This document shows, in pieces, positions 4,538 through 23,938 of a DNA stretch of 23,938 nt. The translations under genes and the position numbers were made by a program. This DNA is from a bacterium (GTDB lineage: Bacteria > DYJV01 > JALVYZ01): the NCBI GenBank assembly GCA_027037705.1, contig JALVYZ010000338.1, positions 1 to 23,938 on the forward strand. Direction: 5' to 3'. Within the stretch, counting starts at the first letter, position 1. Each line of letters starts with the position of its first letter. The notes below the pieces were generated by a model, which had not been told where the DNA came from, made no database searches, and saw only the letters and a program-made list of their open reading frames with translations.

Positions 4538-6499
4538 ATGTTTAAACTTTCAGCGTTATATACAGATTTTTACGAATTAACAATGGCTCAAGGGTATTTC
4601 ATCCATAACAAAAAGGATGATATAGCATGTTTTGACTATTTTATTAGAAAAAATCCTTTTAATGGAGGATATGTAATCTATGCTGGATTAAAAACTTTTT
4701 TAGATGAACTTAGCAATTTTACTTTTTCGGATGATGATATTGAATTTTTATCTCAATATAATTTTAAAAAAAAGTTCCTTGATTATCTTAAAAATTTTCA
4801 TTTTACAGGTAAAATTTATTCTTTTGAAGAAGGAGATGTTGTATTTCCAAATGAACCTATAATGAGAATTGAAGGACCAATAATTGAATGTCAGATTTTA
4901 GAATCATTCCTTTTAAATTATATTAATTTTCAATCACTTATAGCAACAAAAACAAGAAGAATTATATTTGCATCAGAAGGCAAACCTGTAATTGATTTTG
5001 GATTAAGAAGGGCTCAAGGTCTTGGAGCAGTTCATGCTGCGAGGGCTGCTTATATTGGAGGAGCAATAGGAACGTCTAACACTCTTGCAGGAAAAATATT
5101 TAACATACCAGTTAAAGGGACACATGCTCATTCATGGGTTCAAAGTTTTCCAAATGAATATGAGGCATTTAAAGCATTTGTTAAAGCATGGCCAGAAGGT
5201 GCTATTTTATTAATTGACACCTATGATACGTTAAAAAGTGGTCTGCCAAATTCCATTAAGGTTGCAAAAGAACTTGAAAAAGAAGGACATAAGTTATTTG
5301 GGATAAGATTAGATAGTGGTGATTTTGCATATTTATCAAAAAAAGTTAGAAAAATATTAGATGAAAATGGCTTAAATTATGTAAAAATTATTGTTTCAAA
5401 TCAATTAGATGAATATACAATTAAAAGTTTATTAACTCAGAAAGCTCCAATTGATGGATTTGGAGTTGGGACAAGATTAATAACCTCTTATGACCAGCCA
5501 GCTCTTGATGGAGTCTATAAATTATGCAGTTTAAACAATATCCCCAAAATTAAAATTTCTGAAAACATAGAAAAAGTTAACAATCCTGGGATAAAAAAAG
5601 TAAGAAGATTTTTTAATGGAGATGGAAAATTTTTAATAGATGGCGTTCTTTTAATTGATGAAAAAAAGATAAAATTATTAAGACATCCTGTTGATCCATA
5701 CAGAAAAAAAGAAGTTACAGGACTTAATTTTGAGGAACCTTTACAATTAGTTTATGATAATGGCAAATCACTTTACAATAAATCAATTGATGAAATTAGA
5801 GATTTTTCATTAGAGAGATTTAAACTTTTACCAGAAGAACATAAAAGATTTATAAATCCACATATATACAGAGTTGGATTAAGTAAAAAATTATGGGATT
5901 TGAGAGATATTTTAATTAAAGAAAGTAACAGAGATTATGTACTAATTGATACAAGTTCTGATGCTTTATTTATTGTAGATTTACAAAATGATTTCTGTCC
6001 TGGCGGAGCTTTAGCTGTAGAAGATGGAGATAAAATTGTTCCAATAATAAATAAAATTATGAAAAAATTTAAAAATATTTATGCTTCAAAAGACTGGCAT
6101 CCTGAAGAAAGTGTACATTTTGATAAATGGCCTAAACATTGTATAGCAAATTCATTTGGGGCAGAACTACATAAAGATTTAAAAAAAGAATACATAAAAG
6201 AAATTTTTATAAAAGGGACTTCAAATAGTGATGATGGATATTCAGCTTTTGAAGCTACAAACAAAAATTTATTTAAATTTTTAAAACAAAATAAAATTAA
6301 AAGACTTTTTATTTGTGGACTTGCTCTTGATTATTGTGTTAAAGCAACCGCTTTAGATTCTGTTAAGAAAGGATTTGAAACATTTATTATTATTGACGCA
6401 ACAAAACCAGTAAATAAAGATGAAAAATTTATAAAAAAATTACTTGATGAATTAAAGAAAAAAGGGGTTTTTATTATAACATCAGATAAAATAATATGA
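4538..6499 (+). CDS. Bifunctional nicotinate phosphoribosyltransferase-nicotinamidase fusion (PncB-PncA)
   Basis: A 653-residue fusion of two consecutive NAD-salvage enzymes. Residues 1-460 are nicotinate phosphoribosyltransferase: LYTDFYELTMAQGY (7-20), FDYFIRKNPFNGGY (32-45), DFGLRRAQG (153-161), GTHAHSW (194-200, with the phosphorylatable His at 198), and the phosphate-binding RLDSGD (257-262). Residues 475-653 are a pyrazinamidase/nicotinamidase: FIVDLQNDF with Asp481, metal-site SKDWHP with Asp519 and His521 plus His528, IKGT with Lys559, and LDYCVKATA with Cys600. The Asp-Lys-Cys triad is intact, so both halves look active. Nicotinamide would be deamidated to nicotinate and turned directly into nicotinate mononucleotide using PRPP. 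The frame is continuous with no stop, and codon use is uniform through the junction. The TGA overlaps the next ATG by 4 nt. Confidence 0.93.
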   Translation: MFKLSALYTDFYELTMAQGYFIHNKKDDIACFDYFIRKNPFNGGYVIYAGLKTFLDELSNFTFSDDDIEFLSQYNFKKKFLDYLKNFHFTGKIYSFEEGDVVFPNEPIMRIEGPIIECQILESFLLNYINFQSLIATKTRRIIFASEGKPVIDFGLRRAQGLGAVHAARAAYIGGAIGTSNTLAGKIFNIPVKGTHAHSWVQSFPNEYEAFKAFVKAWPEGAILLIDTYDTLKSGLPNSIKVAKELEKEGHKLFGIRLDSGDFAYLSKKVRKILDENGLNYVKIIVSNQLDEYTIKSLLTQKAPIDGFGVGTRLITSYDQPALDGVYKLCSLNNIPKIKISENIEKVNNPGIKKVRRFFNGDGKFLIDGVLLIDEKKIKLLRHPVDPYRKKEVTGLNFEEPLQLVYDNGKSLYNKSIDEIRDFSLERFKLLPEEHKRFINPHIYRVGLSKKLWDLRDILIKESNRDYVLIDTSSDALFIVDLQNDFCPGGALAVEDGDKIVPIINKIMKKFKNIYASKDWHPEESVHFDKWPKHCIANSFGAELHKDLKKEYIKEIFIKGTSNSDDGYSAFEATNKNLFKFLKQNKIKRLFICGLALDYCVKATALDSVKKGFETFIIIDATKPVNKDEKFIKKLLDELKKKGVFIITSDKII

Positions 6500-8846: not shown

Positions 8847-9956
8847 ATGAAAAAAATATTATTAACATTATCAATCCTTTTTATAGCAGGATTTTTATTT
8901 GCAGATGTTAAAATTCCTGTTGTATCACCTTATACTGGACCACTTGCAACATTTGGAGAAGGAGTTAAAAATGGAGCATTACTTGCTGCTGAAGTGATTA
9001 ATAAAAATGGTGGAATCAAAGGTGAAAAAGTAGTTATTGATTTAGAAGATGACATGTGCGAACCAAAAGAAGCAGCAAATATTGCTACAAAACTCGCAGG
9101 AGATAAAGATGTATATATTGTAATTGGCCATCTTTGCTCAAGTGCTACTTTAGCAGCAGAACCAATTTATAAATCCGCACATTTACCTGCTATCTCACCA
9201 GCCTCAACAAATGTTAATATTGGAAAATTAAGTAAATATTATTTTAGAAATGTTTATAAAGATGATTTTCAGGGTAAATTTTTAGCTCGTTATGCAGATG
9301 AAGCACTTCATGCTAAAAAGATTGTTATTTTCTATGAAAATAATGATTATTCTATTGGCTTGAAAGATGCATTTGTAAAAGAAGCAAAAAAAAGAGGATT
9401 AAAAATTCTCGGAACTGAAGCATATACTCAAGATGACACAGACTTTAAACCAATTTTAACAAAATATAGAGCATTAAGACCAGATGTTATCTTTATTCCT
9501 GGTTATGCTCCCCAAGGAACATTAATTATTTCTCAGGCAAGAGAGCTTGGATTTAAATGCAAATTTATGGGGGCTGATGGTCTTGATGACAAAATAATGC
9601 TTCAGAACCCTGATGCTGAAGGATTAATGATAACAACTCCTTTTATTCCAGATAAAGCAGGACCTGAAGCAAAAAAATTTATAGAAATGTATAAGAAAAA
9701 ATTTAAATCAGAGCCAAACTGGTTTGCTGCAAATACTTATGATGCAGTAATGCTTGCTGCTGAGGCTATAAAACATGCAGGAAAAAATAGAGAAAAAATT
9801 AGAGATTATTTAGCAAGTTTAAATTCTCCACAAAAAGCATTTCATGGAGTAACAGGTGCTACTTATTTTGATAAATATGGAGATTGTCAAAAACCTGCTT
9901 TTATTAAAGTAATTAAAAACGGTAAATGGGTAGGAGCTGAGATACAGTTGAAATAG
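8847..9956 (+). CDS. livK: Branched-chain amino acid-type ABC transporter substrate-binding protein
   Basis: A 369-residue type I periplasmic binding protein (Peripla_BP_6). Residues 1-19 are a signal peptide (KK, hydrophobic core, cleavage after LFA); the mature protein begins DVKIPVVSPYTGPLATFGEG. No lipobox cysteine is present, so it should be free in a periplasm, as in diderm bacteria. Cys71 (DDMCEPKEA) and Cys97 (IGHLCSSAT) align with the disulfide of E. coli LivJ/LivK, and the GHLCSSAT and ISPAST segments form the ligand pocket. Ligand is likely leucine/isoleucine/valine or a related amino acid, but the family also binds other amides and acids. A strong GGAGGTGG ribosome site precedes the ATG. 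The permease genes follow after an unusual 298-bp repeat region. Confidence 0.93.
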   Translation: MKKILLTLSILFIAGFLFADVKIPVVSPYTGPLATFGEGVKNGALLAAEVINKNGGIKGEKVVIDLEDDMCEPKEAANIATKLAGDKDVYIVIGHLCSSATLAAEPIYKSAHLPAISPASTNVNIGKLSKYYFRNVYKDDFQGKFLARYADEALHAKKIVIFYENNDYSIGLKDAFVKEAKKRGLKILGTEAYTQDDTDFKPILTKYRALRPDVIFIPGYAPQGTLIISQARELGFKCKFMGADGLDDKIMLQNPDAEGLMITTPFIPDKAGPEAKKFIEMYKKKFKSEPNWFAANTYDAVMLAAEAIKHAGKNREKIRDYLASLNSPQKAFHGVTGATYFDKYGDCQKPAFIKVIKNGKWVGAEIQLK

Positions 9957-10254: not shown

Positions 10255-11160
10255 ATGCTATTACAACAACTTGTTAATGGAATAGTTCTTGGTTGTGTTT
10301 ATGCACTGATAGCCGTGGGCTATACCCTTGTATATGGAGTAATTGAGCTTATAAACTTTGCCCACGGCGATATATATATGCTTGGTGCATTTTTTATGTA
10401 TACTTTCTTAAATTTTGGTGTACCTTTTTTACCTTCCTTTGTATTAGCAGTTATTTGTTGTATTATAGTTGGAATTTTATTAGATATTATTGCTTATCGT
10501 CCTGTTAGATATGCAGATAGACTTGCTGCTTTAATCACTGCAATAGGCATGAGTATATTTTTTGAGAATATTGCACTTTTAATCTGGGGTGCAGATATAA
10601 AAAGGTATTCAAGAGAATGGATCCCTCATTTTTTTAAAAAATTATTTATAAATCTACCCAACGAACACTTTCAAAATGTATTTTTAACTGTATCGTATCT
10701 ACAAATTACTATTATTGTTTTATCTATAATATTAATGATAATTCTTCATTTAATCATACACAAAACAAAAATGGGAACAGCTATGAGAGCTATTGCTCAA
10801 GATAAAAGAGCAGCAGCACTCATGGGAATAGATGTAAATAGGGTAATATCTTTTACATTTGCTCTTGGTTCAGGTTTAGCTGCAGTTGCGGGGATTTTCA
10901 TAGGGATGTATTACAATAGTATATATCCAATGATGGGATATATTGCTGGAATAAAAGCATTTGCTGCTGCTGTATTAGGTGGAATAGGTTCTGTGCCTGG
11001 AGCTATGCTTGGAGGTGTTGTATTAGGAATGGCTGAAACTTTGGGAGCAGGATATATTTCAAGTGCTTATCGCCATGGAATAGCTTATGCAGCTATGATA
11101 TTTGTGATACTTTTTAATCCTGCTGGCTTAATGGGAAAAAGAAAAGTGGATAAAGTTTAA
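10255..11160 (+). CDS. livH: Branched-chain amino acid ABC transporter permease LivH
   Basis: A 301-residue inner-membrane permease with about eight hydrophobic segments. The N-terminus MLLQQLVNGIVLGCVYALIA followed by VGYTLVYGVIELINFAHGD is highly typical of LivH and fixes the start. The cytoplasmic loop GTAMRAIAQDKRAAALMGID is the EAA-like coupling motif that contacts the ATPase, and the C-terminus has the family-typical KAFAAAVLGGIGSVPGAMLGG. No Shine-Dalgarno is seen; a degenerate 10-nt repeat occupies the upstream 50 bases. LivM starts 1 nt after its stop. Confidence 0.95.
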   Translation: MLLQQLVNGIVLGCVYALIAVGYTLVYGVIELINFAHGDIYMLGAFFMYTFLNFGVPFLPSFVLAVICCIIVGILLDIIAYRPVRYADRLAALITAIGMSIFFENIALLIWGADIKRYSREWIPHFFKKLFINLPNEHFQNVFLTVSYLQITIIVLSIILMIILHLIIHKTKMGTAMRAIAQDKRAAALMGIDVNRVISFTFALGSGLAAVAGIFIGMYYNSIYPMMGYIAGIKAFAAAVLGGIGSVPGAMLGGVVLGMAETLGAGYISSAYRHGIAYAAMIFVILFNPAGLMGKRKVDKV

Positions 11161-11161
11161 T

Positions 11162-12118
11162 ATGGAAAGAAAATTAAAAATAGTTGGACTTATAATTGGA
11201 TTATTTTTACCATTATTTCCTTTTCCAGGAATAGATTACATTACAAGAGTTGCAACTTTAACTGTTTTGTATATAGTTTTAGCTCTTGGTTTAAATATTA
11301 TAGTTGGATTTGCTGGACTATTAGACCTTGGTTATGTTGGTTTTTATGGAATAGGAGCATATGTTGCTGGTTTAATTTCTGTTCATTATGGATGGGGATT
11401 CTGGTATTTAATTCCTTTATGCATATGTGCAGGTGCTTTATCTGGAATTTTACTTGGAACTCCAACATTGAGACTAACAGGAGATTATTTTGCAATTGTT
11501 ACTTTTGGGTTTGCAGAACTTGTTGTACTGTTAATTAGAAATGAGATATGGCTAACTCGTGGCCCAATGGGAGTTGCAGGAATTCCTCCAATTTCTTTTT
11601 TTGGTCATCAGTTTACAAAAGAATGGGAATACTACTATATAATTTTTATCATATTCTTAATTGTTTTACTCTTTATCAAGAGACTTGAAAATTCTAAAAT
11701 TGGTAGAGCATGGTTTGCAATTAGAGAAGATGAAATTGCAGCCCAATGTTGTGGAGTAAATCTTGTTAGATATAAAGTCTTAGCTTTTGCAATTAGTGCT
11801 TCAATAGGTGCAATTGGTGGTGCTTTTTATGCAAGATGGTTTAGATTTATTCATCCAGATATGTTCAAATTCTGGGAATCTATTTTAATTCTATGTTTAA
11901 TTGTTTTTGGTGGAATGGGAAATGTATGGGGAGTCATTCTTGGAACAATTGTATTAATACCAATGACTGAAATTTTAAGAAATATTTTACCCCAAGAATT
12001 TGTACAAGCAAGATACTTAATTTTTGGAGCATTATTAGTTATTATGATGAGATTTAGACCTAATGGGTTATTACCATTTTCAAGAGAAAGAAAAGATGAA
12101 AATTTTAAAAGTTCATAA
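11162..12118 (+). CDS. livM: Branched-chain amino acid ABC transporter permease LivM
   Basis: A 318-residue inner-membrane permease. The segment ALGLNIIVGFAGLLDLGYVG (residues 40-59) and the Gly-rich stretch FYGIGAYVAG mark LivM; LTGDYFAIVTFGFAE follows, and GRAWFAIREDEIAAQCCGVN is the coupling loop for the ATPase. The C-terminal FGGMGNVWGVILG and RFRPNGLLP motifs are standard. Length is shorter than E. coli LivM (425) because it lacks that protein's N-terminal extension, as in most bacteria. It probably pairs with LivH as a heterodimeric channel. The 3' end overlaps the likely livG start (12096) by 23 nt. Confidence 0.94.
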   Translation: MERKLKIVGLIIGLFLPLFPFPGIDYITRVATLTVLYIVLALGLNIIVGFAGLLDLGYVGFYGIGAYVAGLISVHYGWGFWYLIPLCICAGALSGILLGTPTLRLTGDYFAIVTFGFAELVVLLIRNEIWLTRGPMGVAGIPPISFFGHQFTKEWEYYYIIFIIFLIVLLFIKRLENSKIGRAWFAIREDEIAAQCCGVNLVRYKVLAFAISASIGAIGGAFYARWFRFIHPDMFKFWESILILCLIVFGGMGNVWGVILGTIVLIPMTEILRNILPQEFVQARYLIFGALLVIMMRFRPNGLLPFSRERKDENFKSS

Positions 12119-13229
12119 TTTAACCAAAGATTTTGGTGGTGTAAGAGCTGTTGATAATGTTTCATTTGAAATAGAGAAAGGTTCAATTGTAAGCATTATT
12201 GGACCTAATGGCGCTGGAAAAACTACTCTTTTTAATATGTTAACAGGATTGTTGAAACCAACAAAGGGGAGTATCTTATTTAAAAATCAGGAAATTGTAC
12301 CTGAAGATAAACCTGAAGATTTTAAATTTTTAACTAAAATATCTATTATTTATGCAATTTATTCATTTTTTGTTGTATCATATTTTTATATTATTTATTA
12401 TAAAGATGCTACTTTTCAATTTGAATTTACGCTTTTTTCAATTCTTATAATATTATTTAGATTTTACACTTCATACCGTATGCAAAAGAGAGTTATATGG
12501 GCAAAAGGTTTTAATTCAATTATTCTTTTTTTTGATACTGCATTTGCTTTATTCTTTGCATTTTATAAAAATCAGATACTACCTGCTATTATAATTACCA
12601 TTATTTCCTGTTATTTCTATTACTATTTTAATAGACGAAAAACCAAAAACCTCTTTGGAGAATTTATAGAAGCTGATAAAATTGCAGTTAGTGGGATTGC
12701 AAGAACTTTTCAAAACATAAGGTTATTTCAAAAATTAACAGCTCTTGATAATGTAATGATAGGATTTCACAAAAGTATAAATGAAAATCTTTTTGGTATT
12801 TTGTTAAATACAAATCATAAAAAAATGGAAGAAGAAAAATTTGTGGAAAAAGCTTTACAACTTCTTGATTATGTAGGTTTAAAAAAACATGCTTATTTTT
12901 TAGCATCTAATTTACCATATGGTGAACAAAGAAAACTTGAAATAGCACGAGCTCTTGCCCTTGAACCTGAATTACTTTTACTTGATGAACCAGCAGCAGG
13001 AATGAATCCTGTTGAAACAGAAAATTTACTTCAATTAATAAAAAAAATTAGAGACGATGGTACAACAGTTATTTTAATAGAACATGATATGAAACTTGTT
13101 ATGAATATTTCTGATAAAATTATTGTTCTTGACTACGGGGAAAAAATAGCTGAAGGCAAACCTGAAGAGATTAAAAAAAATCCAAGAGTTATTGAAGCTT
13201 ATTTAGGGAAGGTTACTGAGAATGCTTGA
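12096..13229 (+). CDS. livG: ABC transporter ATPase LivG with an internal four-helix membrane insertion
   Basis: A 377-residue ATPase; canonical LivG is about 255. The start at 12096 (MKILKVHNLTKDFGG) fits the family; an upstream in-frame ATG at 12063 would only add 11 non-homologous residues. Walker A is GPNGAGKTT (36-44), Q-loop Gln206 in TFQNIRLF, signature LPYGEQRKLEIARAL (273-287), Walker B LLLLDEPA (293-300), and His330 as H-loop, so the ATPase looks functional. Between the beta strand after Walker A and the Q-loop, residues about 75-190 are an extra block with four hydrophobic segments (82-102, 111-124, 139-157, 161-178). Lys/Arg-rich loops (RMQKR at 128-132, NRRKTKN at 179-185) sit on the expected cytoplasmic side, compatible with both halves of the ATPase staying in the cytoplasm. 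The frame is intact and codon use matches neighbours. Confidence 0.92.
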   Translation: MKILKVHNLTKDFGGVRAVDNVSFEIEKGSIVSIIGPNGAGKTTLFNMLTGLLKPTKGSILFKNQEIVPEDKPEDFKFLTKISIIYAIYSFFVVSYFYIIYYKDATFQFEFTLFSILIILFRFYTSYRMQKRVIWAKGFNSIILFFDTAFALFFAFYKNQILPAIIITIISCYFYYYFNRRKTKNLFGEFIEADKIAVSGIARTFQNIRLFQKLTALDNVMIGFHKSINENLFGILLNTNHKKMEEEKFVEKALQLLDYVGLKKHAYFLASNLPYGEQRKLEIARALALEPELLLLDEPAAGMNPVETENLLQLIKKIRDDGTTVILIEHDMKLVMNISDKIIVLDYGEKIAEGKPEEIKKNPRVIEAYLGKVTENA

Positions 13230-13926
13230 ACTTAGAAATGTTCATACTTTTTATGGTAAAATAGAAGCATTAAAAGGTATAAATTTAAAAGTTAATAAAG
13301 GAGAAATTGTTTGCTTAATTGGTGCAAATGGTGCAGGTAAGACCACAACATTATTAACAATTAGTGGTATAGTTAAACCAAAAGAAGGTGATGTAATATT
13401 TGATGGTAAAACAATTAATAATTATTCACCAGACAAAATTGTTAAATTAGGTATTGTTCATGTTCCAGAAGGTAGAAGAATTTTTCCAGAATTAACTGTT
13501 GAAGAAAATTTAATATTAGGAGCATATATTCAAAAAGATAAACAAAAAATAAAAGAAAATTTGGAAAAAGTCTTTACCTTATTTCCGATTTTAAAGGAAA
13601 GGTTCAAACAACTTGGTGGTACAATGAGTGGTGGAGAACAACAAATGCTTGCAATAGCAAGAGGATTAATGAGCGAACCCAAAATATTACTTCTTGATGA
13701 ACCATCTTTGGGATTAGCACCTAAAATTGTTGAAAGAATTTTTGATATAATCACAGAAATTAATTCAGAAGGCACTCCAATTTTACTTGTTGAACAAAAT
13801 GCAAATATGGCTTTGCAAATTTCAACAAGAGGTTATGTTATAGAAACAGGAAAAATTATTTTAGAAGGCTCTTCAAAAGAACTTCTCAATAATGATGAAG
13901 TGAAAAAAGCATATCTTGGTGAATAA
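13222..13926 (+). CDS. livF: Branched-chain amino acid ABC transporter ATPase LivF
   Basis: The second ATPase of the transporter, 234 residues, normal length for LivF. Walker A is GANGAGKTT (34-42), the segment VPEGRRIFPELTVEENL is the LivF-type Q-loop region, the signature is MSGGEQQMLAIARGL, and Walker B is LLLDEPSLGLAP. The H-loop position reads VEQN, which is usual for LivF. It would pair with the atypical LivG to form the ATPase heterodimer. The start overlaps the livG end by 8 nt, and the stop codon overlaps the rluB ATG (TAATG), so the transporter and rluB are one transcription unit. This gene has no membrane insertion, in contrast with LivG. Confidence 0.95.
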   Translation: MLELRNVHTFYGKIEALKGINLKVNKGEIVCLIGANGAGKTTTLLTISGIVKPKEGDVIFDGKTINNYSPDKIVKLGIVHVPEGRRIFPELTVEENLILGAYIQKDKQKIKENLEKVFTLFPILKERFKQLGGTMSGGEQQMLAIARGLMSEPKILLLDEPSLGLAPKIVERIFDIITEINSEGTPILLVEQNANMALQISTRGYVIETGKIILEGSSKELLNNDEVKKAYLGE

Positions 13927-14938: not shown

Positions 14939-15931
14939 TTAAACACTCATTTCTAACCATGAGTGTGAATATAAAACCTTTCCTGTTAAAACAAGAAAAG
15001 ATTTATAATATTCAAGTTCTTCACCTTCTAAAGATGAAGGATCTATTTTTGGTTGATTTTTGTAATCTGTATTAGCTTCAATATACATAGCAACATTAGG
15101 AAATTTTTCTTCATCAAGCTCGTGAGCTAAAAATCTTCCAGCTAAATCAACTAAATTTTTCTTTTTACCTTTTACTAAATCCATCATTGCTTTATCATAA
15201 CCATCAATAATTGATGTTTCAATTCCAAGAACCATATGAATTGCTTGATATGGACCATTTAATTTTGGTCTTAATTCTGTTGGTGTCCCATTTGATACAT
15301 TTGATAATCCACATGTTGAGCTTGCACCAGGAGCAAAATCAGGGATTAATGGTAAAAATTCTAAGAAAGCAATAACCTGATTTAAGTCTACGCTAACTGG
15401 TAAAACAATTGGATCAATATACATTTTGTTTTCTGGGATTCCAAGTTCTAATGCTTTATTATAAATATCTGCTGCACATGCACCTCTTTCATTAACATCT
15501 CTTGGAATTCCTTCTTCACTTAAAAGTAATGCAACAAATCTACAATTATACTCTTTAACAAGTGGCATTCTTGTATTCAAAGACTCTTTCTGAGCAGAAA
15601 TTGAATTTATAAATGTAACTTCTGGATTTCTTACAACTTTTAAACCAGCTTTAACAGCTTCTGTATTAGTTGTATCAAGAGCTAATGGGATTTCATCTCC
15701 AACTCTTGGGTCAACTTCTTGAACTGTTTTAACAAGCCAAGCCATCATTTCGTCACCAGCTTTTCTTGCTGGTCCTAAATTTAAGTCTAAAATATCACAA
15801 CCAGCTTCAATTAAGTCCTCTGTCATTTTTTGAACAGGTTTAGCGTTTCTTTCTTTAATAGCAGGTCCAATAACTTTTGACATAATGTTAATGTTCTCTC
15901 CAATTGCTAATATTTCATAATTTACTGCCAT
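14939..15931 (-). CDS. acsE: Methyl-THF : corrinoid Fe-S protein methyltransferase (MeTr)
   Basis: Transfers the methyl group of methyl-tetrahydrofolate to the Co(I) of the corrinoid iron-sulfur protein. It is a pterin-binding TIM barrel: IGENINIM (10-17), ILDLNLGPA (47-55), LALDTTNTEAVKAGL (83-97), YIDPIVLPVS (171-180) and GLSNVSNG (208-215) with the conserved Asn that helps activate N5. The protein has 330 residues against about 262 in Moorella AcsE; the extra block lies near 255-308, before a last helix (SFLVLTGKVLYSHSW) that resembles the Moorella C-terminus. A strong AGGAGG site precedes the ATG at 15931. A terminator-like hairpin separates it from acsC, so its expression may be set apart from the genes upstream. 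Confidence 0.93.
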   Translation of the reverse strand: MAVNYEILAIGENINIMSKVIGPAIKERNAKPVQKMTEDLIEAGCDILDLNLGPARKAGDEMMAWLVKTVQEVDPRVGDEIPLALDTTNTEAVKAGLKVVRNPEVTFINSISAQKESLNTRMPLVKEYNCRFVALLLSEEGIPRDVNERGACAADIYNKALELGIPENKMYIDPIVLPVSVDLNQVIAFLEFLPLIPDFAPGASSTCGLSNVSNGTPTELRPKLNGPYQAIHMVLGIETSIIDGYDKAMMDLVKGKKKNLVDLAGRFLAHELDEEKFPNVAMYIEANTDYKNQPKIDPSSLEGEELEYYKSFLVLTGKVLYSHSWLEMSV

Positions 15932-15966
15932 AATTTCCTCCTATATTTTTAGTGTTAATGCTCGAT

Positions 15967-15998
15967 AAAAAAAAGCTGGTGTATAAAACACCAGCTTT
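15967..15998 (-). terminator. Intrinsic terminator/attenuator between acsC and acsE
   Basis: On the minus strand AAAGCTGGTGT (15998-15988), loop TTTAT, ACACCAGCTTT, then a run of T to 15967 (eight T in total). An 11-bp perfect stem plus T-tract is a canonical rho-independent terminator, located 10 nt after the acsC stop and about 35 nt before the acsE start. Partial read-through would lower acsE relative to the upstream genes. Confidence 0.88.
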
Positions 15999-16008
15999 AT
16001 CACAATAC

Positions 16009-17364
16009 CTACTGATTTTTAGCTACATATTCTTTTAAAAATGCAGGAATGTCTGCTGCTTCTCTTGTACCAATAACAACTTCCCAATCTTCACCAAGTT
16101 CTTCTTGTAACTCACCACTAATTTGAGCAACATAGCCTGGAATTATTATTTTTCTATGTTTTATTTTATCAGCAATACCCACTTTTTTAATAAATGGAGC
16201 AATTGCATCTGCAACAAATTTACCAGCTGACCAAGCTGTTAATACAGACATACCTTCTACATCCATAATTACCAACCATGTAGGCACTCTACTTGCCTCA
16301 ATTGCTGCAGCAACAATAAAGTAAGTAAGAGCAAAGTTTGTTGTAACAATAACAGGAGAATTTTCGTCTGGTTCATTAATTGGATAAATTCCTTGTTCAA
16401 CAACCATTGGTCTTTGTGGATCTGTGTAAATATTGAGTCTTTGAATAGCGAGTGGCAATATAACTTCTGGTTTACAGTCTGAAATAACTATAATTCCACC
16501 ATATTTTGCAATTGCTAATGCTGCAATTGTTGCCTCTTTAATTTCATCATCAGTCATTTCATAAATTAAATTGCATGTTGGGAATCCATAAGCTTTATCT
16601 TTTTTCTTTAATGCAAGTCTTCTAACAAATGTATTATGCTGGAACATAGTTTTAGCATCTCTTGCTTCTGTATCTAAAATTATATCTTTAAATCCTTTTT
16701 CAACAATCTTTGGTGTTAATTCTGCCACCTTTTCAATAGGTGCTTTTAAAACAAGAGAGAGTTCATTAGCTTTTGCAATATCTACTAATTTTTCATAATT
16801 TTCTTCTGTTGCAGCATATAATACACCTTTTGTTCCTTTTAATATTCCAGCTGCTTGCTCTAAAGCTGCAACATCATCACTCATAGCCATAATTGGTTTT
16901 TTGGTATTGTCTTTAATTTTTTGTAGTAATGCTGTAAACTTTCCTGCATCACCTGACTCATTTTTAACAACTGCTAAATGAGCTTTTAAAATGTAACCAA
17001 CTCTTTCAAATGATACTTCATTGAAATTTTTAAGTCTTGCATCAATTGTTGCATCATCTTCAGTGTCTTTAAATAACACTCCAATTAATGGTGGATTAAA
17101 AAATGTTTTATCATGTCTATAAAGAACAAGCTCTTCCCCAATTTTATATTGCTCATCACCAGTTCCAATAACAACTCCCCTGATTGGTGGTTCACTTGCT
17201 TCTGCTAATTTTGCTTTAGCTTCATCACTTACATATGGACATTTTGAAAGCTCAGTTTTTCCCTGAGCTAATTGCATAGCAAATGCTAAACATGTAGGCT
17301 GTCCACATTCTTTACAATTTTTCTTTGGTAACAATTTGAATATCTGAATTCCTGTTAAACCCAT
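16009..17364 (-). CDS. acsC: Corrinoid iron-sulfur protein large subunit
   Basis: The 451-residue gamma subunit of the corrinoid protein, which carries a [4Fe-4S] cluster and binds cobamide together with the small subunit. The N-terminal cluster domain has Cys17, Cys20, Cys25 and Cys42 (LLPKKNCKECGQPTCLAFAM region), the same spacing as I recall for Moorella AcsC. A TIM barrel follows, and the C-terminal part, with PTWLVIMDVEGMSVLTAWSA, is the cobamide-binding domain. Start at 17364 is supported by GGAGAG 8 nt upstream. It lies between acsB and acsE, and hairpins flank it on both sides (17396-17417 and 15967-15998). Confidence 0.95.
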   Translation of the reverse strand: MGLTGIQIFKLLPKKNCKECGQPTCLAFAMQLAQGKTELSKCPYVSDEAKAKLAEASEPPIRGVVIGTGDEQYKIGEELVLYRHDKTFFNPPLIGVLFKDTEDDATIDARLKNFNEVSFERVGYILKAHLAVVKNESGDAGKFTALLQKIKDNTKKPIMAMSDDVAALEQAAGILKGTKGVLYAATEENYEKLVDIAKANELSLVLKAPIEKVAELTPKIVEKGFKDIILDTEARDAKTMFQHNTFVRRLALKKKDKAYGFPTCNLIYEMTDDEIKEATIAALAIAKYGGIIVISDCKPEVILPLAIQRLNIYTDPQRPMVVEQGIYPINEPDENSPVIVTTNFALTYFIVAAAIEASRVPTWLVIMDVEGMSVLTAWSAGKFVADAIAPFIKKVGIADKIKHRKIIIPGYVAQISGELQEELGEDWEVVIGTREAADIPAFLKEYVAKNQ

Positions 17365-17395
17365 TTCTACTCTCCTTTCACTTTTTTATTATTTT

Positions 17396-17417
17396 AACAG
17401 GGGGCTATCCCCCTGTT
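17396..17417 (-). other. GC-rich intercistronic hairpin between acsB and acsC
   Basis: AACAGGGGG (17396-17404), loop CTAT, CCCCCTGTT (17409-17417): a perfect 9-bp stem in very AT-rich surroundings. On the acs coding strand the 3' side is AAAATAATAAAA, with no T-tract, so it is more likely an RNA processing or 3'-end-stabilising element than a terminator; only the opposite strand has a T-run. Confidence 0.7.
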
Positions 17418-17426
17418 TTTATTAAA

Positions 17427-19649
17427 TTACATCAATGGTTCCATTTCAAGTGCTGGATGTCCAACTTTCTGCATCCATTCATAAAGCTCTTCTTCTGTTG
17501 TACAATCTTCTTCAGTTGCAATTTTATCCACTAAATCAGGAACACCTTCTTCTTCACATCTTTTTTGTAATCCATTTTCAACTAAGAATTCTTTTAATGC
17601 TTTTGGTAACCATGCAAGTCTCTTTAATCCACCTTCAGCAGAGATAAATTTCTTTGAGAGGATGTATAATTTTGAAATTCCAACAAATCCTGGTGTTTGA
17701 ATACCACCACCAACAGTTCCAGCAAGTGTTGAAAATCTCATACCACAAGGTGTATCTCCTGTATAGTCTCTGTCAACAACCATAATAGCATTACACATTG
17801 GCAATACAACTGCAATAGCTTCAAAACATCCACAAGATGTCATAGGGTTATCCATAATTGAGTAAGCACATGCATACTCAACAGCATTATGGCTTGCAGT
17901 GTAAATAAACTCATCAATTTTTTCCCATCTACCTTTAACAGGGTCAACAACTTCTCCTTTTGGTAATGGTTGGTTAGGTCCTGTTGGGTTAATTTCGTAA
18001 GCAGCTTTACAGTCTAACATATTGTATGCACCGCAAAGTCCTGGTCTTTCAGGTGTAATTACGCAAACGTGGTTAGGCGCAAATGACTGACATAATGTAC
18101 ATGAATAAAATGTATCAACTTCTTCATCTTTCATTCCAGCAAGTCTGTTATCTCTTTCATGGTATACAGCTCTTGCTTTTTCAAGTAATTCTTTTACTTT
18201 TTCTTCTTCTGTGTAAATTTTTACCTGAACTTTGTCAATAATTGCACCAAATTCCTGATGCAATTTATCATGTAAAATCTGTCCAATATGTTTAAATTTA
18301 AATCCTGCTTCATATGCTTTATCTGAAATTCTCATCCATAAAATATCTCTCTGTCCAATATGTAAAACACCTTCAGCCTGGTTAATCAAATGGTGAAATT
18401 GTCTTTCAATAATTGGTTCAAAATCTTTCTGGAATTTTCTTCCAGCTACCTGTACCCAAATAGCAAATGGGATTGTAACTCCCCTTTCATATTCATCAAT
18501 TTCTTTTCCAATAACTTCAATTTTATTATCTTCAATTTCATCTAAGTCTTTCATTTCACAGAATTCAAAAGCAGGTGCTTTTGGTCCACCCATTTCAATT
18601 CTCATAGCATCTTTTCCAATTCTTTCACCTTCAAATGCAGGACCATAAGATACAGGGACATCAACTTTTTTAATAACAATTTTAAGACCTCTAACTTCAA
18701 TTGCTTTTGAAACAATTTTATCATGAGGAACATTTGATACAACGTGTTCGTATGTACAAACACCATATGGTAAAATTTCAGGAATATCACTATCAGCAAT
18801 TGTTGGGAATCCATAGTTAATAGCACCAGCTGCTGCTGCATACCATTCATCTGTAACTGTCCCAAGGGCTAATACAAATGCGAAAATTCTGTTTTTATTG
18901 TAAAGTAATACTTTTCTGTAATCTCCAGGTTTTGCCCCACCAAAACTCATAGCAGCTCTTGTTGCAAAACCAAGAGCATGGATTGCTGCTGATGTATCTT
19001 TTCCAAATGGAACAAGTCTTGTATCCCAACCAAGCTGAACTCCTGCTTCCTTAAGCTGTTCTGCCATATTAACACCATTATGGTCAGAAGCCATAAAAAC
19101 ATAAAGATATTTTTCTTGCATTTCTTTAGCAAGCTTGACTGCTGTTTCAACATCTGGAGGAGCACCAACAACAGCTGCGAATCCTGGTGCAGAACCATCA
19201 ACGAATTCAACTCCTCTTTTTCTCATAATAACATCATCAGCTGCTCCAAGCCATATATTATCTGAAGCTGGATCAATCCACTCTGTCCCACCTGGTAAAT
19301 ATGGACATTTATCAGGATCAACATATTTTAAAGCTTCTTCCATATCATATGCAAACAATGTAGCCATCCCTGCATCAAGAGCAGGTCCTAAATAAGGAAT
19401 CCATAAATCTTCAGCAGGAACTTCTGGTAATAATTGTTTACAATACTCAATAATTGGTGGCATATCACCAAGTTTTTCAACTTTTCTACCTAAAATCCCA
19501 TAAATAATTGGTAAATAGTAAGCTGTATTTGGATATGCTACTTCTTTATCTGGACCGTACTGGTCAATTGCTTCTTTTATTTTATTTTCCACTCTTTCCA
19601 CGATTTTGTGGGCACCTCTAATAGCTGCACTTGCAATAATTTTAGACAT
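17427..19649 (-). CDS. acsB: Acetyl-CoA synthase (A-cluster subunit)
   Basis: Condenses a methyl group, CO and CoA into acetyl-CoA. The 740-residue length matches full bacterial AcsB (about 729), so it includes the N-terminal CODH-binding and CO-channel domain that archaeal CdhC lacks. A-cluster ligands are complete: Cys517, Cys520, Cys529 and Cys539 for the [4Fe-4S] cubane (SCTLCQSF, VCV, GLCGAY), and Cys606-Gly607-Cys608 (TSCGCFEA) for the distal nickel; the spacings 3-9-10-67-2 equal those of the Moorella enzyme. Phe523 corresponds to the Phe that gates the proximal Ni. A strong AGGAGGG site supports the ATG at 19649. The CODH gene acsA is not in the window. Confidence 0.97.
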   Translation of the reverse strand: MSKIIASAAIRGAHKIVERVENKIKEAIDQYGPDKEVAYPNTAYYLPIIYGILGRKVEKLGDMPPIIEYCKQLLPEVPAEDLWIPYLGPALDAGMATLFAYDMEEALKYVDPDKCPYLPGGTEWIDPASDNIWLGAADDVIMRKRGVEFVDGSAPGFAAVVGAPPDVETAVKLAKEMQEKYLYVFMASDHNGVNMAEQLKEAGVQLGWDTRLVPFGKDTSAAIHALGFATRAAMSFGGAKPGDYRKVLLYNKNRIFAFVLALGTVTDEWYAAAAGAINYGFPTIADSDIPEILPYGVCTYEHVVSNVPHDKIVSKAIEVRGLKIVIKKVDVPVSYGPAFEGERIGKDAMRIEMGGPKAPAFEFCEMKDLDEIEDNKIEVIGKEIDEYERGVTIPFAIWVQVAGRKFQKDFEPIIERQFHHLINQAEGVLHIGQRDILWMRISDKAYEAGFKFKHIGQILHDKLHQEFGAIIDKVQVKIYTEEEKVKELLEKARAVYHERDNRLAGMKDEEVDTFYSCTLCQSFAPNHVCVITPERPGLCGAYNMLDCKAAYEINPTGPNQPLPKGEVVDPVKGRWEKIDEFIYTASHNAVEYACAYSIMDNPMTSCGCFEAIAVVLPMCNAIMVVDRDYTGDTPCGMRFSTLAGTVGGGIQTPGFVGISKLYILSKKFISAEGGLKRLAWLPKALKEFLVENGLQKRCEEEGVPDLVDKIATEEDCTTEEELYEWMQKVGHPALEMEPLM

Positions 19650-19671
19650 AATATCCCTCCTGGTTTATTTT

Positions 19672-19685
19672 ATGCCTTCTGGCAT
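19672..19685 (-). other. Small hairpin between acsD and acsB
   Basis: ATGCC, loop TTCT, GGCAT: a 5-bp stem in the 45-nt gap, about 22 nt before the acsB start. It is short and could be chance, but it occupies the same relative place as the stronger hairpins in the other acs gaps. Confidence 0.3.
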
Positions 19686-19694
19686 TTATTATTT

Positions 19695-20651
19695 TTAACT
19701 GTAAAGTTCATTAATTAATTCTTTTATAACTTTAACTGCTGTAGGGTTTCTCATAATTAAAATTGAACTACCAGCAGCAATTAAATCAATTGCTGTAATG
19801 GACTCCATTAAAATTCCTCTTGTATTTTGTTCTCCATAAGTAGGCTCTTCTTCAACTGTTAACATAGCTTCTCTTGTTTTCCATGCTTCTTTTGCTAAAT
19901 CATTAATAAATGGATTTTGCATTTTATCATCATTTTGAGCTAATGCTGCCAATGAAATTCTTTCCATTACAGAATAGGTATATTCAATTCCATATCCTAA
20001 TGATGCAGTAGTTGGATCCATAACTACTTTGTCAAGAGATAATCCTAAATTTTCAATTAAAATATTTAACTGTTTTGCAAGGTTAACATCAATTGAAGAT
20101 TTACCAGCAACAAGATGACCATATCCAATAGCACTTGCTGTGATTTTTTTGTAATTTCCTTCTTCAGCTGGGCCAAATAACCAATTTTCATTAGGAAAAG
20201 CTTCCATGATTGCAGGAAGAACTTCCTGATCCTTCTCTAAATTGTTACTTCCCCAAATAATTAAAGGAATATCACCAACTGCTTCTTTTACTTTTTTTAC
20301 TACTTCAATTGCTTCTTCTGCACTTTTGTTTTGAGCATTTGGGTCTGTTCCAGCAAGCTGAACACAGATTAAATCTGCTCCATATTCAAGACATTTTTTT
20401 GCCCATGCTCCTGGATCATTGATAACATCTTTAAAAGCTTCAAATGTTGCTGGTGGCCAACCTTGTGCATTTAATTCTGGTGCAACATCATAAACTTCCA
20501 TAGCAACTACAGGTTTATTTGGCCATGTACCTTCAAAAGTACATAAAGGCATACTATCATAGCCACCAATTTTTACTGCTTTGTCTCCTTTCCCAATTAC
20601 AATTTCTCTTACTTTTCCTGCATAATTTTCTTTTGGAATTGCAAAAGCCAT
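19695..20651 (-). CDS. acsD: Corrinoid iron-sulfur protein small subunit
   Basis: The 318-residue beta subunit of the corrinoid protein, a TIM barrel that pairs with AcsC around the cobamide and accepts the methyl group from AcsE. Recognisable family segments are VAMEVYDVAPELNAQGWPPA (about 50-69), GADLICVQLAGTDPN, PLIIWGSNNLEKDQEVLPA, and KVVMDPTTASLGYGIEYTYSVMERI, followed by MLTVEEEPTYGEQNTRGILME near the C-terminus. Length is standard. GGAGAGAGAG precedes the ATG at 20651. It is placed before acsB, whereas Moorella has acsB first followed by acsC and acsD. Confidence 0.95.
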   Translation of the reverse strand: MAFAIPKENYAGKVREIVIGKGDKAVKIGGYDSMPLCTFEGTWPNKPVVAMEVYDVAPELNAQGWPPATFEAFKDVINDPGAWAKKCLEYGADLICVQLAGTDPNAQNKSAEEAIEVVKKVKEAVGDIPLIIWGSNNLEKDQEVLPAIMEAFPNENWLFGPAEEGNYKKITASAIGYGHLVAGKSSIDVNLAKQLNILIENLGLSLDKVVMDPTTASLGYGIEYTYSVMERISLAALAQNDDKMQNPFINDLAKEAWKTREAMLTVEEEPTYGEQNTRGILMESITAIDLIAAGSSILIMRNPTAVKVIKELINELYS

Positions 20652-20679
20652 GACTCTCTCTCCTTTCTTTTATTTTTAT

Positions 20680-21432
20680 CTATAAAATTTTTGCCAAAAA
20701 TTGATGCAATCTCTTTACTGTTTCAGATTCTGCTGGAATCTTATATGTTGGTTTCCCTTCTCTATCAAATTTTGCAATATATTCATCTTCAGGCAAAATT
20801 AATGAAATATCTATATTATTTTCCTTTAAAAAATTTTCAGCATCTTTGTCAATGCCATTTTTTGCTCTGTTTATAATTACATAAAAGTTACCAATATTTA
20901 ATTTAATTGATTTAGCCAAATCAATCATTCTTTTTACCGTATTTACACTCCTTCTTGATGGATCAGAAACAATAAAAAAATGATCCACATCTTTTGTAAG
21001 TAATCTACTCATATGCTCCATTCCAGCTTCATTATCCATCACAATGTAATCATAATTGTCAAGTAAAATATCTATATATTTTTTACATAGAGTATTTGCA
21101 GCACAATAACATCCTTGACCTTCAGGGGTCCCCATTACGATTAAATCGAATCCATCTCCCTCATTCACACACTCCATTACTTTATATTCTATAAATGTTT
21201 CTTTTGGCATCCCTTGAGGAACTTCGGTCCTCATTAATTCTCTTGTATTTCCTATTGTCTCTCTCACCTCCATTCCTAAAACTTCATGTAAATTTGAATT
21301 TGTATCAGCATCTACTGCTAAAATTTTTCCTTTTTTGTTCTCTACTAAATATCTTATTATTAAGCCTGTTATAGTTGTTTTTCCAACTCCACCTTTCCCT
21401 GCAACTGCTATTTTAATTCCTTTATACTTCAT
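20680..21432 (-). CDS. cooC: CooC/AcsF-type nickel-insertion ATPase
   Basis: A 250-residue MinD/SIMIBI-class ATPase that loads nickel into CODH or acetyl-CoA synthase. The deviant P-loop GKGGVGKTT is at residues 12-20, VDADTNSNLHEVLG follows at 40-53, and the signature metal motif GQGCYCAANT has Cys108 and Cys110 as the CxC that binds Ni at the dimer interface. IVMDNEAGMEHMSRL and VSDPSRRS complete the family pattern. In this neighbourhood, next to acsD and acsB, the AcsF role (activation of AcsB) is most likely, but CooC acting on CODH is not excluded. The ATG overlaps the RACo gene stop by 4 nt, with AGGAGG inside the end of that gene. Confidence 0.94.
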   Translation of the reverse strand: MKYKGIKIAVAGKGGVGKTTITGLIIRYLVENKKGKILAVDADTNSNLHEVLGMEVRETIGNTRELMRTEVPQGMPKETFIEYKVMECVNEGDGFDLIVMGTPEGQGCYCAANTLCKKYIDILLDNYDYIVMDNEAGMEHMSRLLTKDVDHFFIVSDPSRRSVNTVKRMIDLAKSIKLNIGNFYVIINRAKNGIDKDAENFLKENNIDISLILPEDEYIAKFDREGKPTYKIPAESETVKRLHQFLAKIL

Positions 21433-23471
21433 TTAACCTCCTGAGTTTTTCTTTTTAATTTATCTACAATTTTATTTATCTCCTCCATTGTTTTTGGAAA
21501 AAGAGATGGATCTGTATGTGGCAAAAAGCATGCAGCAACAAATTCTTCCATAAATTTCATATTATTTGCGAGTTCAATATGTGTCATCATATTAGAAATT
21601 TTATCAGCTTCTTTCATTAAATCTTTTGAAAATGCTACAAGCCTTGTACCCATTAATGATGAATTTCCAACATAAATAAATTTTTCTAAATCAACCTCTG
21701 GGAATAATCCAATTTTAATTGCCTTTTCAAGATTTATATATTTTCCAAAACCACCTGCTATTATTATTCTTTCAACATCATCAAATGTCATTCCAACACT
21801 TTCAAGCAAAATTTTACAACCTGCAAAAACAGCACCTTTTGCTCTTAAAAGATTATCAATATCTGCTTCACAAATAGTAATATCTTCTCCAATACCACTA
21901 TTTTCTTTCCAAACGATTACAAATTCATACCCACCTGTTTCTCCCTCTCTAATTCTTGGAGAATCTATATCTTTATTAAATTTTCCATTCTGAGAAATAA
22001 TACCTGCTTTAAACATTTCTGATATTATTTCTATTAAACCTGAGCCGCATATTCCAATTGGTTTTTCACCTCCAATTGTCATAATCATTGGTTCAAAATT
22101 TTCTGGATTAATTCTACATTGTTCAATTGCTCCAGGAGTTGCTCTCATTCCAAACTTAATCCCACCACCTTCAAATGCTGGACCTGCTGAACAAGAAGTA
22201 CAAACAAGCCAATCTTGATTGCCAAGAACAATTTCACCATTTGTACCAATATCCATAAATAATGTTATTTCAGGAGCCTGATATATCCCTGTAGCAAGAA
22301 CACCAGATACTATATCACCTCCTACATAGCTTGCTACATTAGGAAAAGTATAAACATATGTTGATTCTTTTAAATTTATGCCTAATTTATGTGCTCTAAC
22401 AGGTGGGAATTGTCTAGCTGTTGGGACATAAGGTTCTTCTCTTATATATTTAGGATTAACTCCTAAAAAAAGTTGAGTCATAGTTGTATTTCCAGCTGTT
22501 ACCATAAAAGAGATATCTTCTCTATTTATTTTTGATTTTTCAAGACATTTATCAAGAATCTCATTTATTGTATCAACAGCTGCTTTTTGTAAAATTTCTA
22601 ATCCATTTCCTTTTATAGCATAAACAATTCTTGTGATAACATCTTCTCCATAACTTACCTGTTTATTATAAATTGAATGTTCAGCTAAAACACTCCCTTT
22701 AGCAATAGAAACTTCTTCTATTCCATCATTAAGTAAGTCACAGACATTTAAATCTAAAAGTTCTCCTGATACTCCAGTTGTTCCAATATCAACAACAAAA
22801 GCATAATTTTGAGCCCCTTTTTTTCCTTCTACAACATCAATAACTTTATATCTACCTTCAACAGAAACAACTGTTAAGACTATTTTCCAGTTTGATTCTC
22901 TTAATAAGGTAGGTAACTTTTTAACTACTTCAAAATCAAATGTTACATTTTCTATATTATAATGTTTCTTTAAAGTCCTTATTATTCTATCTACATCATT
23001 CAAATTATCATCAAGTGTTGGCTGTTCTAATGGGAGATATACCTTAAAAATAGTTGGATTTAATTTATATGAAGGAATTAAATGTTCAATTTTGGTTGCA
23101 CTTAAAACATGTTCTGGTTCTTTCTTTATTTCATAAACAGAACTATCTATCTGACTTTCTTTAGGAATTTCAACTTCAATAGGACCATAAACTTTAGTTA
23201 GACATGCTAATCTATAACCTTTTTCAATTTCATCTTTCGTTAATTTTGGACTTTTACCACCTTTAATATTTTCTAAACCATTTTTAATTATAACTCTACA
23301 TTTTCCACATGCACCTATTCCTCCGCAAGATGCATTAATATGAACCCCTGCTGCCATTGCAATTCTAAGTAAATTTTCACCTTCTTTAAAAACATCTATT
23401 TCTACATTATATGGCAAAAATTTTATCTTAAATTTACCTTCTGGTTTCTTTATCTCTTGTATAGGGTTCAT
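21429..23471 (-). CDS. acsV: Reductive activator of corrinoid Fe-S protein (RACo / AcsV)
   Basis: A 680-residue activator that uses ATP to drive reduction of inactive Co(II) corrinoid protein back to Co(I). The N-terminal [2Fe-2S] ferredoxin domain has Cys49, Cys55, Cys58 and Cys90 (ASCGGIGACGKC, then LAC). A linker and middle domain cover about 100-220, and the ASKHA ATPase-like domain starts at AFVVDIGTTGVSGELLDL (222-239) and includes LFMDIGTNGEIVL, GPAFEGGGI, and IIIAGGFGKYINLEKA. Length and architecture match RACo-type proteins. AGAGGTG lies 8 nt before the ATG at 23471. It is translationally coupled to cooC, and a hairpin separates it from fhs. Confidence in the family is high; partner assignment is inferred from acsC/acsD nearby. 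Confidence 0.93.
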   Translation of the reverse strand: MNPIQEIKKPEGKFKIKFLPYNVEIDVFKEGENLLRIAMAAGVHINASCGGIGACGKCRVIIKNGLENIKGGKSPKLTKDEIEKGYRLACLTKVYGPIEVEIPKESQIDSSVYEIKKEPEHVLSATKIEHLIPSYKLNPTIFKVYLPLEQPTLDDNLNDVDRIIRTLKKHYNIENVTFDFEVVKKLPTLLRESNWKIVLTVVSVEGRYKVIDVVEGKKGAQNYAFVVDIGTTGVSGELLDLNVCDLLNDGIEEVSIAKGSVLAEHSIYNKQVSYGEDVITRIVYAIKGNGLEILQKAAVDTINEILDKCLEKSKINREDISFMVTAGNTTMTQLFLGVNPKYIREEPYVPTARQFPPVRAHKLGINLKESTYVYTFPNVASYVGGDIVSGVLATGIYQAPEITLFMDIGTNGEIVLGNQDWLVCTSCSAGPAFEGGGIKFGMRATPGAIEQCRINPENFEPMIMTIGGEKPIGICGSGLIEIISEMFKAGIISQNGKFNKDIDSPRIREGETGGYEFVIVWKENSGIGEDITICEADIDNLLRAKGAVFAGCKILLESVGMTFDDVERIIIAGGFGKYINLEKAIKIGLFPEVDLEKFIYVGNSSLMGTRLVAFSKDLMKEADKISNMMTHIELANNMKFMEEFVAACFLPHTDPSLFPKTMEEINKIVDKLKRKTQEVK

Positions 23472-23493
23472 ATTAATACACCTCTAATAAAAT

Positions 23494-23514
23494 TAGGGCG
23501 GAAAACCCGCCCTA
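23494..23514 (-). terminator. Hairpin after fhs, weak terminator or attenuator
   Basis: On the minus strand TAGGGCGG, loop GTTTT, CCGCCCTA (8-bp GC-rich stem, 23514-23494), followed by ATTTTATT, a poor T-tract. It lies in the 47-nt gap between fhs and the RACo gene, about 23 nt before the RACo start, so partial termination or RNA processing is likely. Confidence 0.6.
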
Positions 23515-23518
23515 TTAT

Positions 23519-23938
23519 TTAGAATAATCCTTTAATCTCACCTGTTTCAACATCAATATCAACATTATAGCCAGCTGGTGTTTTTCCAAGGCCTGGCATT
23601 GTTCTCATTTCACCACAAAGAGGATAAAGGAATCCAGCACCAGCTGAAGGTCTAATATCTCTAATTGGCAATCTGTATCCAGATGGCACACCTTTCCATG
23701 TAGGCTCATGGCTTATAGATAAGTGAGTTTTAGCCATACAGATTGGTAATTTATCTAAACCCTGCTTTGTATATAATTCAATTTTTTGTTCAGCAAGTGG
23801 TGAATAATCAACACCATCAGCATTATACATTTTAGTTGCAATAGTTTCAATTTTTTCTTTAATTGGTGCTTCCAATGGATAAAGAAATTTAAAGTTCTTT
23901 GGATCAAAATTATCAGCTGCATCAATAACTGCTTCAGC
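23519..23938 (-). CDS. fhs: Formate-tetrahydrofolate ligase (C-terminal part; N-terminus beyond window)
   Basis: Makes 10-formyl-THF from formate, THF and ATP, the first step of the methyl branch. The frame is open to the right edge, giving 139 visible residues; the internal TTG at 23875 is not a start because homology continues upstream (DPKNFKFLYPL). Family marks are LPICMAKTHLSISHEP, RDIRPSAGAGFLYPLCG, MRTMPGLGKTPA and the terminal GEIKGLF. The wording LCMAKTHLS, IRDIR and GFLYPL is closer, from memory, to the synthetase domain of eukaryotic MTHFD1 than to Moorella Fhs (KTQYSLS, TVREV, GFIVALTG). It is the first visible gene of the minus-strand acs cluster. Confidence 0.93.
   Translation of the reverse strand, partial: AEAVIDAADNFDPKNFKFLYPLEAPIKEKIETIATKMYNADGVDYSPLAEQKIELYTKQGLDKLPICMAKTHLSISHEPTWKGVPSGYRLPIRDIRPSAGAGFLYPLCGEMRTMPGLGKTPAGYNVDIDVETGEIKGLF

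Follow-up and report, generated by a model that had tools for sequence, protein, structure and literature searches.

The window, meaning the whole stretch of 23,938 nucleotides analyzed here, contains an operon in the order livK-livH-livM-livG-livF. By family only, its importer is of the branched-chain amino-acid type, with branched-chain amino acids as the putative substrates. An additional block lies within the livG gene. The features are given below, with the basis for each assignment in parentheses; G001 denotes the only other genome examined from the phylum of the window, a member of another family in the same order.

8847–9956, + strand: livK, substrate-binding protein (73% to G001)
10255–11160, + strand: livH, permease (70% to G001)
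11162–12118, + strand: livM, permease (best relatives in operons with a four-helix LivG)
12096–13229, + strand: livG, ABC ATPase of the branched-chain amino-acid type importer (ORF, PF00005, PF12399, NF008449)
12201–12227, + strand: Walker A motif GPNGAGKTT, residues 36–44 (motif reading)
about 12297–12665, + strand: inserted membrane domain, approximately residues 68–190, with four predicted transmembrane helices (spacing, hydropathy, AlphaFold, homologous block in five other genomes)
12459–12461, + strand: Arg122, invariant basic residue in predicted helix 2 (alignment A6)
12534–12536, + strand: Asp147, invariant acidic residue in predicted helix 3 (alignment A6)
12702–12716, + strand: Q-loop RTFQN, residues 203–207 (motif reading)
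13222–13926, + strand: livF, partner ATPase of 234 aa with no insert (ORF, comparison)

Outside the operon, a gene at positions 4538–6499 (+ strand) encodes a 653-residue fusion of nicotinate phosphoribosyltransferase with an isochorismatase/nicotinamidase-type domain; a single protein may thereby cover two consecutive reactions of NAD salvage. Positions 14939–23875 (− strand) hold a Wood–Ljungdahl CODH/acetyl-CoA synthase cluster that includes genes for corrinoid proteins and for a RACo-type activator; the activator was checked separately, and the other genes were assigned by reading.

The livG gene starts with an ATG at position 12096 and encodes a product of 377 aa, and its frame remains open through the block with no stop or shift. 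In addition to Walker A and the Q-loop, the protein contains the signature LPYGEQ, the Walker B motif LLLLDEP, and the H-loop IEHDM, and all of these motifs were kept across a 39-row LivG alignment. The Pfam ABC domain (PF00005) matched the protein in two pieces, and PF12399 (BCA_ABC_TP_C) matched its C-terminus with 47.6 bits against a cut-off of 25.5. The best-scoring NCBIfam was NF008449 (LivG), with a match split into two stretches and a score of 291.3 bits, which does not reach the curated cut-off of 362 bits. By sequence, the protein is LivG-like, yet it is not filed as an NF008449 equivalog.

LivG usually, but not by definition, consists of a continuous soluble nucleotide-binding domain (NBD) of about 255 aa. 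When we surveyed 99 LivG-type proteins from loci covering the whole protein, the spacing from Walker A to the Q-loop was 37 residues in 75 proteins and 42–43 residues in 18 (37–43 residues in 93 of the 99), and the other values were 47, 70, 111, 115, and, twice, 158. The spacing in the window LivG is 158 residues, a net gain of about 121. The protein with a spacing of 70 residues (L024) carries a lysine/glutamate-rich block instead of membrane helices, so the LivG loop tolerates other inserts too.

The insert of the window LivG contains four hydrophobic segments (residues 84–102, 111–129, 139–157, and 160–178) with Wimley–White octanol energies of −10.7 to −14.5 kcal/mol, compared with −1.4 kcal/mol for the best segment elsewhere in the protein. 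Four KD peaks were also reached in 130 of 2000 composition shuffles of the whole LivG, so peak counting is weak when taken alone; that the hydrophobicity of the insert is not due to chance follows from its conservation in other genomes. The loop at residues 127–136, predicted to be cytoplasmic, has three positive charges and no negative charge, and the C-side flank has five positive and three negative charges. The two outside loops have one positive and one negative charge, and one positive and no negative charge, respectively, and the N-side flank is net negative (three positive, five negative). This bias would fit a positive-inside, four-helix topology with both termini inside, a fit that is good but imperfect because of the N-side flank. 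The first-pass annotation had described an extra block at residues 75–190, with four hydrophobic segments forming a membrane-type domain between Walker A and the Q-loop, and both ends in the cytoplasm under the positive-inside rule. The extent derived here, approximately residues 68–190, is close to this; the octanol energies and four AlphaFold helices agree with a membrane-type domain, as do the loop charges with the topology, save for the N-side flank. Its remarks that all the catalytic motifs of LivG are intact and that LivF lacks such a block were also borne out, the livF product being of normal length. The insert had no significant match to Pfam, NCBIfam, or PDB sequence families, and no relatives were found in viral and plasmid collections. 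A tandem duplication of one hairpin within the insert was considered and rejected, the two halves looking unlike each other by eye only.

An AlphaFold model of the 377-residue protein had been proposed at the outset as a check. The model, based on 39 sequences, has an otherwise normal LivG/LptB fold: its NBD blocks mostly have a pLDDT of 90 or more, and the NBD superposed on the solved chains of LptB and MJ1267 along almost their full length (Z about 30). Within the insert, it predicted four helices (residues 74–101, 105–129, 133–158, and 161–186; 25–28 residues each) at low confidence, with a pLDDT of about 50–77. The insert folded alone gave four helices again, also at low confidence (pLDDT 63); the alignments were shallow. 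A fold search with the insert alone, made on this 63-pLDDT model, returned only E-values above 3.

The window genome assembly is fragmented (496 contigs), and an assembly chimera or a frameshift might have joined livG to a membrane-protein gene, a concern that the first-pass annotation had itself raised. We give this explanation practically no credence. The same junctions occur in independent genomes, namely G001 and genomes of a second phylum, which rules out an assembly chimera, and the GC3 of the insert (0.117) agrees with that of the rest of livG (0.132).

In G001, LivG has a block at the same site and of the same length, 41% identical to that of the window over 128 residues with no gap; the identity of the flanking NBD is 61–63%. 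Differences between the two inserts by codon position were 58/35/68, lowest at position 2, and conservation was 53% in the second hairpin versus 30% in the first. A profile built from these two inserts matched homologous blocks in G108 and G244, which belong to a second phylum. In that small phylum, such blocks were found in 4 of 12 genomes (G108, G1037, G244, and G1043), within related livM-livG-livF operons; the LivG frames are 410–427 residues long, with 175 residues from Walker A to the Q-loop and blocks 17 residues longer. A sample of 385 genomes around G108, partly shared with an earlier sample, yielded no further four-helix block. The best NBD tree found, from which the sparsely filled (insert) columns were excluded, united all six four-helix LivG proteins as one clade and scored 31.7 log units above the free search. 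The first-pass picture of the layout needs widening, since the block is not confined to the window but is kept in a small LivG clade spanning two phyla. We found no description of a membrane insert in LivG in the literature searched, where the thin coverage of subscription journals makes this weak evidence of novelty.

The alignment of the six inserts (A6) contained 18 invariant residues, including E110-F111, F121-R122, W135, D147, R180, and F187-G188. The insert might be a tolerated, functionally neutral insertion, as would suit its faster evolution relative to the NBD (41% versus 61–63% identity) and the wholly different sequences of the four-helix inserts and of the two-helix inserts described below. 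We judge this quite improbable in view of the conserved length within the phylum, the 18 invariant residues, and the homologues in two phyla.

The window LivM is closest to the LivM proteins of operons with a four-helix LivG (70% and 64%, the next being 57% or less), and these operons also rank near the top for LivF. For LivK/LivH, L058 and L044 are the nearest of the operons that lack the insert. Compared with a related operon without the insert, LivM showed no loss of a helix that would offset the insert. The order yicC-gmk-livK-livH-livM-livG is common to the window and G001. The livF gene of G001 and the downstream pseudouridine synthase gene lie on a separate contig (loci L118 and L188), leaving livKHMG; the operon is orthologous to that of the window but split. 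We also considered whether a membrane protein from outside LivHMGF docks on the insert, as the conservation of its cytoplasmic loop, including V133 and W135, might suggest. This is very unlikely in our view: no extra membrane protein gene is shared beside the operons, livK is preceded by yicC-gmk in the window and in G001 alike, and the pseudouridine synthase gene accompanies livF.

Two-helix hairpins occupy the same LivG site in L052 (Chloroflexota) and L038 (Armatimonadota). The four-helix layout is present in two small phyla and two-helix versions in two more, as judged from sequence. Hairpin-insert queries matched 27 of 400 Chloroflexota genomes and 14 of 251 Armatimonadota genomes; for the latter, 13 is the safer count because G871 is a normal LivG matched at the Q-loop end only. 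The Chloroflexota insert query had no match in 386 genomes across the domain, a sample without a known positive that shows little. In the Chloroflexota loci L123–L150, a conserved R-P-x-x-Y ... ARPND motif lies between the LivG hairpin and the Q-loop. In Armatimonadota, the hairpin LivG additionally forms one protein with LivM, next to a normal LivF; these LivM-LivG fusions (L152–L163) have frames of about 560–770 residues, with the two-helix hairpin inside the ATPase. In the NBD tree, each insert group formed its own clade apart from the others, and hhalign detected no sequence similarity between the four-helix and two-helix inserts, the groups not aligning to one another. These separate clades and unalignable inserts suggest that the four-helix and two-helix inserts were gained separately; a single clade of all insert-bearing LivG proteins was not rejected (AU p = 0.276).

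The insertion point presumably corresponds to the L72/H73 stretch of LptB, a relative of LivG, and the insert would take the place of this stretch; the placement is by sequence only, with an LptB numbering that fits the residues named in the papers. These two LptB residues belong to the loop preceding the Q-loop, where they make contacts with, or can be crosslinked to, the coupling helices of LptF/LptG (PMC5548808, PMC5082905). By this analogy, the LivG insert would sit in the equivalent loop, next to the coupling-helix contact. The first-pass annotation had placed it in the helical region contacting the permease; the proximity to the NBD/coupling-helix contact stands, but the insert falls in the loop preceding the Q-loop rather than in the helical subdomain.

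We consider it somewhat probable that the insert is a genuine, conserved membrane domain of four helices acting as a built-in anchor, which packs beside LivM/LivH and holds LivG on the coupling site. With both ends of the insert in the cytoplasm, the two ATPase halves would fold together as usual. Because the insertion loop appears to border, on the membrane side, the groove into which the permease coupling helix fits, the two hairpins would most likely enter the bilayer alongside LivM or LivH. In that position, they may keep LivG assembled on the permease and may stiffen the transmission between ATP closure and permease movement. The same-site hairpins of Chloroflexota and Armatimonadota, the latter inside LivM-LivG fusions, suggest that such a tether is compatible with the machine. 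Counting against an anchor are the low pLDDT of the modeled insert (about 50–77; 63 alone), the placement of LptB L72 by sequence only, and the invariant charged pair in the membrane part of the insert, which is more than a purely passive anchor needs. Arg122 and Asp147 are on neighboring predicted helices at roughly similar depth, where they could pair.

The insert could instead be a regulatory sensor, its helices binding a membrane lipid, amino acid, or small ligand and adjusting ATPase coupling via the adjoining Q-loop. The invariant polar residues of the membrane part (R122, D147, E110, and W135) exceed the needs of an anchor, the insert connects directly to the Q-loop, and the second hairpin is more conserved than the first between the window and G001. 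However, R122 and D147 could simply pair within the bundle, the insert has no similarity to a known family or solved structure, and a pocket would hardly fit into the two-helix versions of other phyla; we regard a sensor as unlikely. As a tentative and broader proposal, these proteins may represent a distinct class of ABC importer, arisen more than once (as four-helix and two-helix versions), in which the motor is a polytopic membrane protein with helices next to the Q-loop and coupling or sensing occurs via the Arg–Asp pair.

The ATPase of an importer is generally regarded as a soluble protein that docks on the permease. In several bacterial phyla, the face by which LivG docks bears predicted membrane helices that belong to LivG itself. 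The LivG insert offers a natural test of the communication between the coupling helix and the Q-loop, and annotation by length or solubility may miss or misname LivG proteins that bear such inserts.

The window LivG resembles LivG/BraF in its NBD sequence, catalytic motifs, BCA_ABC_TP_C domain, and livKHMGF operon, and it shares a common fold with their solved relative MJ1267 (1G6H, 1GAJ; Z about 30). Unlike LivG/BraF, it has 158 rather than 37–43 residues between Walker A and the Q-loop, and four predicted membrane helices. Its closest solved fold is LptB (4P31, Z 30.8), which differs in being a soluble protein of about 240 aa without the insert and in serving a different transporter (LPS export). 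The two-helix LivG proteins of Chloroflexota and Armatimonadota share with it a hydrophobic hairpin at the same site and a LivF without an insert, but they have two helices with no detectable similarity to the four-helix block, and those of Armatimonadota are fused to LivM. LivM-LivG and other permease–ATPase fusions likewise tie the ATPase covalently to membrane helices; in these fusions, the tie is end-to-end with the permease, whereas in the window LivG it lies inside the NBD.
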